DNA of 64,000 bases. It comes from Pedobacter sp. KBS0701. GTDB lineage: Bacteria; Bacteroidota; Bacteroidia; Sphingobacteriales; Sphingobacteriaceae. Below the pieces are notes generated by a model. That model had not been told where the DNA came from and ran no database searches. It saw nothing but the letters and a program-made list of their open reading frames with translations. Shown here one piece after another: positions 11,860-54,505 of this stretch. The translations under genes and the position numbers were made by a program. Position 1 is the stretch's first letter, and each line of letters opens with the position of its first letter. Location: positions 3,100,001 to 3,164,000 of the forward strand of contig NZ_CP042171.1 of assembly GCF_005938645.2 (NCBI RefSeq), given 5' to 3'.

Positions 11860-12127
11860 ATTTGGAAATGAACAGTTCTGTGTGCCTGGCATTTTTAGTC
11901 CCGCATTCCATTGCAAGTCCGCGCTCGTTCCTCGTTTACGGGCTTTTCATTACATTCGGGTTTAGGAACAAAGGTTTGTACACATGCAACCCTAAAAATG
12001 AAATATTGTTTAGGCCATTTAGCCCCGGGTGCAGCGATACCCTGCAGCAAGGAGGCACGACGAAGCGCAGCGTGAAGCGAAACACGGGAACAAAGTACCC
12101 TATTACGACTACAATTGCGCTCCAAAT
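11860..12127. repeat. Dispersed foldback element, copy 1
   Basis: This 268-bp segment matches 25060-25341 over most of its length, with shared blocks such as CAGTTCTGTGTGCCTGGC, CCATTTAGCCCCGG and TACCCTGCAG. Its ends are complementary: ATTTGGA at 11860-11866 and TCCAAAT at 12121-12127. Inside, ACAAA/TTTGT and GGGTT/AACCC form nested stems around 11957-11993. The open reading frames across it are not conserved between the copies, so it is likely a structured repeat or RNA rather than a gene. Confidence 0.7.
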
Positions 12128-17647: not shown

Positions 17648-18403
17648 AACTGATTGGCTGTTTTTTTTACTATTCCACAATAAGTAAGCATAAACGATAT
17701 TTAAATCATGTCTTTCGCCATTTGCAAACGTTGTTTCCTTCCAGCTTTCCGTATCAGGACAATATGCATTTCTCTACACCCTATCAGATATGGCATGCCA
17801 CTAAGCTCAAAAGATTGGATATCTATTTCTTTTTGGCCCCGGCTATTTAGGCATAAGCCAGGTAATAGTCTTAATACAAGTATTTTTTGAAGCGAACGGA
17901 TAAGCATTTGTGCTGTTTTTTGGTTTTATTGATTTGTATTTTTTAAAAGTAGAATAAGCAAATGAGCATTACAACATAAATATCAGCGCAAACGATTGAC
18001 TAATTTTTAGATAAGCTGCTTTATCCGGACCGGGATTTAACAGCTCTTTTAATTATCCATTTCCGATGTCCTGATTAGCAGATATGGATTAAGGAATATT
18101 TTGTTTGGCAAGTAGGAACAAAAAGAGGCAGTCTAAAATTTGAGGCGAGGCTGCAAAATAAACAATCAGGGAAAAAGTTAACCAAAAGCAAAATAGACCA
18201 GAAAAAATGGGTCATAACCCAAACTTGTTGGCAATGAAAAAATGGGCTGTGTAATTATTCAAGCAACTACCCGACATTAGAAATGTGATCGGCTGATAAT
18301 CTCATCAAGTTAAGCACTGCGGTCGTTAGTCTGTGCGTAGTCGAAGACTTTCCTGAGATTGATAATTCGCAAATAGATGCCCTTTGAATACGCTTCAAAA
18401 GGT

Positions 18404-18513
18404 CGTCATTATAAAGGAGGAACGACTAATCAATCTATCATGCTAATAATCCTTGCTATAGGTCGGAACAGGCTGTCGGCTGAAAAAGCCTTCTTATAAG
18501 ACGATTCCTCGCC
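18404..18513. repeat. Diverged copy of the GTCATTGCGAGG foldback repeat
   Basis: CGTCATT, GGAGGAACGAC, CAATCTATCAT, CCTTGCTATA and GGCTGAAAAAGCCTTCT occur in the same order as in the reverse complement of 49613-49709, with scattered changes. The palindromic arms have decayed. Confidence 0.55.
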
Positions 18514-24987: not shown

Positions 24988-25059
24988 ATTTATTTAAAGT
25001 ATAGGATTTATTGCGAGCAAACCGTGTTGCGCTCCAAATGTAAATGGTGTATTTATTGT

Positions 25060-25341
25060 GATTGGGAAATGAGCAGTTCTGTGTGCCTGGCAGCTTAAGC
25101 CCCAACTTTCAATTCCAGGTCCGACCCTTTGAATCGGGATTTCTCGATTACGGGCTTTGCATTGCAATCGGGTTTGAGCACAAAGTTTGTGCACCCTGCA
25201 AACCCCGAAAAATGAAAACTGCCCGGGCCATTTAGCCCCGGCTGGAGTGTTACCCTGCAGGGACGAGGTACGAGGAAGCGAAGCGTAAAAACGGAAGACG
25301 GGAGGACATTCCCTATTTTATTCAGGCTTTGCGCTCCAATC
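25060..25341. repeat. Dispersed foldback element, copy 2
   Basis: This 282-bp segment between rpoN and the PorP gene matches 11860-12127. Its ends are GATTGG (25060-25065) and CCAATC (25336-25341), complementary to each other yet different from the ends of copy 1. Inside, GCACAAA/TTTGTGC and CGGGTTT/AAACCC form nested stems near 25156-25206. Another TTGCGCTCCAAAT, the same as the right end of copy 1, lies just outside at about 25027-25039. Confidence 0.7.
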
Positions 25342-42168: not shown

Positions 42169-42564
42169 AGAGCAACATTTGTATAAAGATAGTTATTTTA
42201 ATTTTTTTGAGATTTTTTATGTTAAGAATCTCTTTTATCGTGGTTAAAAGTACACCCTTAATTTATCTTAACTCTTTAATGGTGAAAAAATATAAGTTGA
42301 AATCTAACCATTAAGAAATTAAGGACATTAAGTTATTATTATAATAAGTTGTTATTTTGAATAGAGCACAGCGGAGTGGATAAATCCTTAAACTATTTTA
42401 AAAGATTTCTCCACTGCGGTCGAAATGACGATATTTTCGAGACCAATCACCTTCTTTATCCATTTGTCCATTCATATTGATTTTTATAAAATAAATTAGC
42501 CATCACGATGACAATTTATATTAATGAGACAGCCTCTTAATAGATCCTGATACAACTACCAAAT
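42169..42564. other. Intergenic region with a foldback repeat
   Basis: About 396 bp, A+T rich, without a gene. A foldback at about 42358-42430 contains GGATAAATCC and TTCTCCACTGCGGTCGAAAT and ends in GACG, related to the copy at 49796-49872. The rest shows nothing I can name. Confidence 0.5.
42358..42430. repeat. Foldback repeat (TCTCCACTGCGGTCGAAATGACG type)
   Basis: AGCGGAGTGG pairs roughly with CCACTGCGGT across about 50 bp. The same right arm appears at 53922-53943 and, inverted, at 49797-49815. Confidence 0.5.
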
Positions 42565-49509: not shown

Positions 49510-49612
49510 ATTAGAGATAAATCGTAAAAAGATGTCACCCTGGAGGGGTAATTTATTGTATAAAATCAATATAAGTGACATGAGGATTTAGTGCATTGAG
49601 ACCGTGTGGAAT

Positions 49613-49709
49613 CGTCATTGCGAGAAGGCTTTTTCAGCCAACGAAGCAATCTTTATAGCAAGGCTCACTAGTATGATAGATTGCTTCGTCGTTCCTCCTC
49701 GCAATGACG
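49613..49709. repeat. Nested foldback repeat (GTCATTGCGAG type), best copy
   Basis: CGTCATTGCGAG (49613-49624) and CTCGCAATGACG (49698-49709) are perfect 12-bp arms. Inside, CGAAGCAATC and GATTGCTTCG form a second perfect stem. Related copies lie at 18404-18513 and 54026-54170. Confidence 0.75.
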
Positions 49710-49795
49710 ATCTTTCTTTTGAAATCCTGTCAATGGTAGAGTTAGATTTTTTCAAATACATCAGAAGGTTGATGACAGATATACAAAGGGCCTCA

Positions 49796-49872
49796 TTTCG
49801 ACCGCAGTGGAGAAATCTTTTAACATAGTTCAAAGATTTCTCCATTTCGCTGCGCTTCAGTCGAAATGACGG
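49796..49872. repeat. Foldback repeat (GTGGAGAAATCTTT type)
   Basis: GGAGAAATCTTT near 49810 pairs with AAAGATTTCTCC near 49833, with further complementarity of ATTTCGAC and GTCGAAAT at the outer ends. Confidence 0.65.
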
Positions 49873-50102
49873 CGATTTTTTAAATCTGTCAATAGCATCG
49901 TAATCTAGGGTATTTATTTGCGTTTTATCAATCTAAAGAAGTCTTCGACTACGCTCAGACTGACAACAACCGAAATTAAATTAATGACATTAAGGTGGTT
50001 ACAGATAGATTCGATGTTTTCCATAATCCTCCCGTTAATACCCGCCCGCTGCCGGGCAGACTTTAAATCAGGTAGTAATTCATATTAAAAAGCAGAGGGC
50101 AA

Positions 50103-53694: not shown

Positions 53695-54505
53695 AAATAT
53701 ATTGGTAAATCAGAAAAAAAATTAACAGCCTGTTTAAAATTACATAAAATTTATTTCGTTTGTCAGTCTGAGTGTAGTCAAAGATCATTTCAACGCATTA
53801 ATAAAGCAATCAACTAAGCTATCAATGATAGATTCCAATAGAATGGTCGTCATCTCAACCGGAGCAACTCGAAGTGGAGAGCTCTATCAAGAACAGATTT
53901 TGCTTCGCAGAGCCTTCGGGTTCTCCACTGCGGTCGAAACGCCCCCCTTGCATATCTGTCATCAGCCCTCCTATGTATTTGAAAAACTCCAACCTCTACT
54001 ATTGACAGATCTTATAAGAAAGGTGGTCATTGCGAGGCACGAAGCAATCTTAAAGCGCACGCTGATAGCGATCGTTGTAAGATTGCTTCACAGAAAATCG
54101 GGGCAGGCTGCCGGCTGCAAAAGCCTTCTCGCATCCAATAGCTATCGCATGAAGATTCCTCGCCGGAACATAGCAATAGAACCTTCTCTCACTTATATTG
54201 CTTTTTATACAATAAATTATCCATCTTGTAACCGCAAAAAGCCATTGATATTTTTTATAAATTTAACCAGATTCTAAATATAATGATTTGAAAAGAAAGC
54301 TATCCTGCTGCTTTTAAGATTTTGCTGCTAATCGGATACCTAAGCTACAATCAGTATATCTTCACCGGATCCCGGCGGTTTATGATCCCGGCCAGTTTAT
54401 ATTTAGTAAAAAAGAGAATTAGCACTTCAAGCCAAACTAAAAACGGAGCGGTCATCCAACCAGCTCCGTCTGTCGTCATCCAAAACGAATAGCAAATGCT
54501 ACCTT
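53695..54505. other. Intergenic region dominated by decayed repeats
   Basis: About 810 bp without a supported gene. A 150-codon open frame at 53825-54277 runs through repeats and has repeat-derived codons only. The region holds a GTCTGAGTGTAGTC segment near 53763, a GTGGAG/CTCCAC foldback near 53873-53929, and a GTCATTGCGAGG foldback at 54026-54170. The last 200 bp show nothing I can name. Confidence 0.55.
54026..54170. repeat. GTCATTGCGAGG foldback repeat, third copy with an insertion
   Basis: GTCATTGCGAGG, GAAGCAATCTT, AAGATTGCTTC, GGCTGCAAAAGCCTTCTCGC and GATTCCTCGCCGGAAC occur in order. Between them lies an extra GATAGCTATCGC palindrome near 54140. The last blocks are shared with the copy at 18404-18513. 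Confidence 0.6.

Follow-up and report, generated by a model that had tools for sequence, protein, structure and literature searches.

A dispersed intergenic repeat of Pedobacter composed of two outward-reading Flavo-1-like hairpin modules

The repeat and its copies

The window analysed here is a stretch of 64,000 nucleotides, positions 3100001-3164000 of the single contig of 6,334,343 bases that makes up the genome of Pedobacter sp. KBS0701. It holds two plus-strand copies of an intergenic repeat, copy 1 at 11860..12127 and copy 2 at 25060..25341. The initial annotation had described two related segments at these places, and a profile of the family puts them at 11860-12126 (model positions 1-263) and 25061-25339, the ends of copy 2 being read from the sequence. 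The copies are homologous, with 75-78% local identity in ungapped blocks, and are alignable over their full length. The repeat, approximately 264 bp long, is found by BLAST (E<=0.01) at 39 places in the host genome, and 51 of the 99 sampled genomes of the genus have matches (best E 1e-86), so that the search for further copies suggested at the outset had a positive result. An exact 36-base core retrieves 63 DNA stretches from the named collection, every one from Pedobacter or Sphingobacteriaceae. The segment is one of dozens of intergenic repeat copies in Pedobacter.

The lengths and the missing conserved frame reported earlier were likewise confirmed. Among 195 distinct copies, length modulo 3 is uniform, no conserved reading frame is present and the best open stretch is 70 codons, near the 64 of shuffled sequence; a coding unit is rejected because there is no frame. 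Spread by phage or plasmid is also rejected, since the phage and plasmid collections searched hold no match to the element and viral contigs hold no exact match to its core. Other dispersed inverted repeats recur in the window, at 18297-18460, 42351-42428, 49562-49992 and 53921-54205 (for example of the CTGCGGTCGAAATG and TCTTCGACTACGCTCAGACTGAC types).

In an alignment of full copies the element opens with the left end ATTWGGAAATGA. Next come the 5' hairpin, whose distal arm is hypervariable, and a conserved centre, followed by the 3' hairpin and by a tail that ends in TTGCGCTCCAAAT. In copy 1, the copy alignment places the outer tail of the 5' module, with ATTTGGA at its boundary, at 11860..11899 on the minus strand. 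The 5' hairpin follows at 11900..11960, Flavo-1-like and with minus-strand sense, as judged from covariation and from Flavo-1 matches to the same half in relatives. The conserved centre between the modules occupies 11961..12023 in the same alignment, and the 3' hairpin, Flavo-1-like with plus-strand sense by Rfam match and covariation, lies at 12024..12088; by sequence and copy alignment, the 3' module finishes with an outer tail at 12089..12127 on the plus strand, which ends in TTGCGCTCCAAAT. All eight tested stem pairs are Watson-Crick in each hairpin of copy 1. In copy 2, the 5' hairpin (25101..25172, minus strand) keeps seven of eight tested pairs, the other being A/C, while the 3' hairpin (25237..25302, plus strand) keeps all eight, with C-G replacing the G-C and T-A the C-G of copy 1. 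An isolated right end TTGCGCTCCAAAT stands at 25027..25039 on the plus strand, 20 bp upstream of copy 2, which is the modal spacing of arrays, and from its sequence and this spacing a tandem unit upstream of copy 2 has apparently been lost.

Hairpins, ends and the Flavo-1 match

The helices emerge once alignment columns are tested directly. In the 5' hairpin there are 133 double-change cells against 42±4 after shuffling, and in the 3' hairpin 24 against 2.4±1.4; 0 of 500 shuffles reach the observed value in either, and slid registers give far fewer double-change cells. Among the 195 distinct copies, single pairs occur as TA 131/CG 48, TA 115/AT 58, GC 93/AT 37 and TA 171/GC 10/CG 7, and three tested pairs have changed compensatorily between copies 1 and 2 (AT/TA, GC/CG and CG/TA). 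RNAalifold on 111 copies returned no consensus fold (-4 kcal/mol) and the RNA fold of a single copy was no better than its shuffles (z 0.67), but both results are misleading because the variable arms misalign. One large palindrome was rejected, self-alignment being not above shuffled. The earlier reading of selection or copying on a folded structure thus stands as far as a repeat with a covarying fold is concerned, and covariation over many copies was indeed found, but the folds are two internal hairpins rather than the end structure that had been proposed, and the cue taken from the ends fails.

The ends themselves read as first described, ATTTGGA/TCCAAAT in copy 1 and GATTGG/CCAATC in copy 2, but their supposed covariation is unsupported. 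When Watson-Crick pairing was scored per outward position against shuffled partners, for 130 distinct end pairs from 95 loci, complementarity equalled that of the shuffled partners at each position, and covarying ends were rejected on this result. The commonest ends, ATTAGGA and TCCAAAT, fail to pair at the first outward position. When each locus contributes one copy, the paired run averages 1.03 against 0.81 shuffled (P=0.015), a negligible difference. The terminal inverted repeats, 7 bp long and imperfect (ATTWGGA/TCCAAAT), are explained by inverted module ends, because the element consists of two Flavo-1-type modules that read outward.

The Rfam family Flavo-1 (RF01705) matches both halves, the 5' half on the minus strand and the 3' half on the plus strand, and its stem pairs are borne out by the covariation. 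In copy L063 the 5' half scores 44.8 bits against the cut-off of 42; the 3' half scores 21-26 bits, under that cut-off, and both modules of the remaining scanned copies score 20-28 bits, which is sub-cut-off although consistently placed. Over its eight tested pairs the 3' module shows, by table sums, 60 G-U against 8 A-C cells on the plus strand. In the 5' module the plus-strand sums are 10 G-U against 28 A-C (22 of these 28 from one pair), and therefore its sense strand is the minus strand. Where mismatches are conserved, they read G-A on the sense strand of the module concerned. The element is thereby shown to be two outward-reading Flavo-1-type modules set back to back, with a shared CCAAAT boundary.

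The wider Flavo-1 family

Flavo-1 matches number 93 in the host genome, 55 of them over the cut-off, many solo and several in tandem arrays, and the family is present in 37 of 119 sampled genomes of the class. The CCAAAT tail boundary falls outside the Rfam model; among 37 Flavo-1 loci drawn from this genus and others, 24 have YYCAAA within the next 65 nt, where 5 are expected, and 6 have it on the opposite side.

Several variants were seen along the way. Tandem arrays are also formed by other subfamilies of Flavo-1, in units of about 305-370 bp (L241, which is 704400-707300 of the host genome, L242, L243 and L245), and a 324-bp tandem unit additionally holds a divergent inverted partner half. 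A further subclass (L267, L274, L275, L277, L279 and L255) has an outer helix, GCGT.../...ACGCCCAAA, just past the hairpin and outside the Rfam model.

Genomic placement and arrays

Within arrays the copies follow one another head to tail, most often 14-21 bp apart. Convergent genes flank 37 of the 87 clusters and divergent genes 9, and 2 clusters overlap an ORF. At sites between tandem genes the two orientations occur 27 and 14 times, which is no firm orientation bias. Target-site duplication was not detectable in 78 clusters, direct repeats being equal to or below the shuffled level. The partial copies at array ends had raised the idea that circularly permuted multimers were inserted as units, which was dropped because the breakpoints of the fragments scatter and many of them are nested insertions of another repeat.

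Two other repeats are associated with the element. One, with ends CAATGTCATTAAGTTAAG...CTTAACTTAATGACATTG, has been inserted repeatedly near a single point of the element, GCGTTACC at model position ~178, and seems to have duplicated GCGTTACC there; examples are L020 (~2409-2543), L034, L081, L105, L111, C6115748, C3228696 and C6042481, the C-numbers being start coordinates of merged loci on the host contig, C1. The other, a hairpin repeat CCTATCGGTTGGTGTCTCACCGACCGAAATAGAA, is found directly 5' of many copies (for example L009, 1301-1440) and in many array spacers.

Persistence and divergence

Six sites of the host genome were compared with relatives. In G001, G004 and G009 the element is mostly at the same place with an altered tandem number. 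The copy 2 site is without the element in the more distant G003, G005, G007 and G008, yet at site E the element is present in G003 and G007. No clean empty site was found. Median identity at the same site is 0.793, against 0.794 between different sites of one genome. At four-fold sites the identity to the nearest relatives is 0.61-0.62, and that to G007, G008 and G003 is 0.37-0.44; the site E element has an identity of 0.78-0.80 to that of G003/G007, where the four-fold sites are at 0.44/0.37.

Over 537 same-site pairs, identity declines from 0.876 (flanks 94-97%) to 0.82 (flanks 70-75%), the value for random pairs, so copies at a shared site keep about 82% identity even when synonymous positions have reached saturation. 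Identity within a genome equals identity between genomes, at 0.823 each, figures that are raised and compressed by the picking of loci in other genomes for consensus similarity; neither concerted evolution nor genome-specific bursts are seen in this equality. Fragments are more decayed than full copies (0.745 against 0.814 to the consensus). These comparisons disfavour dead relics, recent bursts specific to one genome and gene conversion inside genomes. Because similarity-based sampling inflates absolute identities, we only infer what they favour, a long-term upkeep of one structure, and the persistence at single sites could in part be replacement of copies rather than selection.

Possible origins and functions

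The suggestion in the initial annotation of a non-autonomous mobile element agrees with the architecture and the tandem arrays, but no cognate transposase, target duplication, genome-specific burst or clean empty site came to light. A MITE of a DDE transposon, with ATTWGGA/TCCAAAT as short terminal inverted repeats for a cut-and-paste transposase, would fit the inverted ends, size and intergenic dispersal, but the ends can be explained as the homologous boundaries of two inverted modules, genome-specific subfamilies are absent, and the DDE family tested shows no association with Flavo-1 in the genus (21/61 against 11/38 genomes). Without the target duplications that such a transposase would leave, we reject this explanation as very improbable. 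The same two absences, of target duplication and of a DDE association, suit a REPIN mobilised by a RAYT/Y1 transposase, its hairpins cut as single-stranded DNA, and so do the inverted pair of hairpins, equivalent to two inverted repeats in one unit, and the finding that Flavo-1 and Y1_Tnp tend to occur together in genomes of the genus (54/61 against 2/38, P=1e-17 with kinship ignored). Across the class, however, this association is weak (34/37 against 54/82), and Flavo-1 matches are numerous in some genomes, G074 and G107 among them, that give no Y1 hit. The key observation would be a gene flanked by its cognate repeat, and here membership of the element in a RAYT system fails: just 2 of 20 RAYT-like loci have Flavo-1 within about 1-1.6 kb, and the repeats that flank the RAYT genes examined are mostly unrelated ones. 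We do not claim RAYT mobilisation for this reason, and regard it as unlikely; around the RAYT-like loci and flanks examined, no mobilising gene was identified. The RAYT-like genes of Pedobacter (L292-L305, L307), which carry the motifs NH[VIL]H and Y[IL]HxNP, have their own flanking repeats, of several distinct families.

A structured RNA had also been proposed. An sRNA family of Rfam does match the hairpins, but because each strand has only one of the two modules in sense, no single transcript can contain both in sense. Each module might instead act separately, in 3' untranslated regions or as a small RNA (for example in 3'-end protection or termination), the neighbours' use of it keeping the copies in place. 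The listing of Flavo-1 as an sRNA, the G-U/A-C asymmetry, the bias of sites toward gene 3' ends and the constraint at each site speak for such a function; the opposed sense strands and the lack of a firm orientation bias at tandem-gene sites speak against it, and tandem arrays are unexpected for an sRNA gene. In published transcriptome work on F. psychrophilum, moreover, Flavo-1 showed no preference for sense or antisense and frequently fell outside transcripts (PMC9723704). We consider an RNA function of this kind conceivable but somewhat doubtful.

The explanation that we think fairly probable is that of a composite Flavo-1 repeat that spread between genes in an ancestor, turns over in tandem and has a fold recognised by a protein, working in the manner of REPINs and BIMEs. 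The element would have spread through intergenic sites in the ancestor of part of the genus, and its copy number would now shift mainly by tandem duplication and loss of a unit of about 282 bp, a pattern that is seen directly and from which the process is inferred. A protein may recognise each module as a folded single strand, the fold and not the exact sequence being maintained, as suggested by the covariation, the asymmetry of G-U and A-C cells and the conserved G-A mismatches. Because copies are retained at corresponding sites in different species and close to one consensus, selection or renewal probably acts on the hairpins, which would then not be dead relics. The putative recognising protein does not appear to be among the RAYT transposases sampled.

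Flavo-1 has been an unexplained "small RNA" of the Bacteroidota since 2010, its discovery paper giving no function for the motif that it lists (Weinberg et al. 2010, PMC2864571). That the "Flavo-1 sRNA" behaves as a repeat module is a new point; the behaviour is that of an ordinary-looking intergenic repeat, and the building block is an unexplained Rfam family. We put forward tentatively, as an idea that could well be wrong, that Flavo-1 is the recognition module of structure-recognised DNA repeats throughout the Bacteroidota, with a non-RAYT protein of its own, and that in Pedobacter an outward pair has been maintained site by site over the long term. The inverted pair within a high-copy tandem repeat, with sense on both strands, suggests studying Flavo-1 as repetitive structured DNA (or as paired RNA/DNA), and the extended CCAAAT boundary together with the paired architecture offers a concrete bait for the recognising protein.

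Comparison with known systems

The inverted arrangement of a Flavo-1 pair was not described in the literature searched. Each half of the element is, like Flavo-1 RNA (RF01705), a rod-like hairpin with symmetrical internal loops and a hypervariable distal arm, although the Pedobacter modules differ in being paired inverted, in their CCAAAT tails and in occurring in dozens of copies and in tandem. ERIC-type repeats, whose mobiliser is unknown, are mid-sized, imperfect, palindrome-like intergenic repeats, and the element seems to resemble them in this general way, but its sequence is unrelated and it consists of two separate outward-sense hairpins, not one palindrome. TnpA-Y1 genes of subclass 2.6 have been described with repeat structures flanking them (PMC6006769), and these "atypical secondary structures" are similarly structured repeats of Bacteroidetes copied elsewhere in the genome; in Pedobacter, however, such genes have other repeats as their flanking structures (for example GCGCAAGTCTTAGCG... 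and GTCGTAGCGTCTCGCTACGAC), not Flavo-1. With the gammaproteobacterial REP/REPIN/BIME repeats the element shares an extragenic location, high copy number, a bias toward convergent genes, inverted hairpin pairs, solo modules and clusters. It differs from them in having modules of about 110 nt rather than 20-65 nt and a tandem unit of about 282 bp, in that no 5' GTAG/GGAG (GT[AG]G-type) guide tetranucleotide was noticed at its hairpin foot in the copy alignment, and, compared with REPIN/RAYT, in not flanking the RAYT genes examined. In its working the element looks most like a REPIN/BIME-type extragenic structured repeat.
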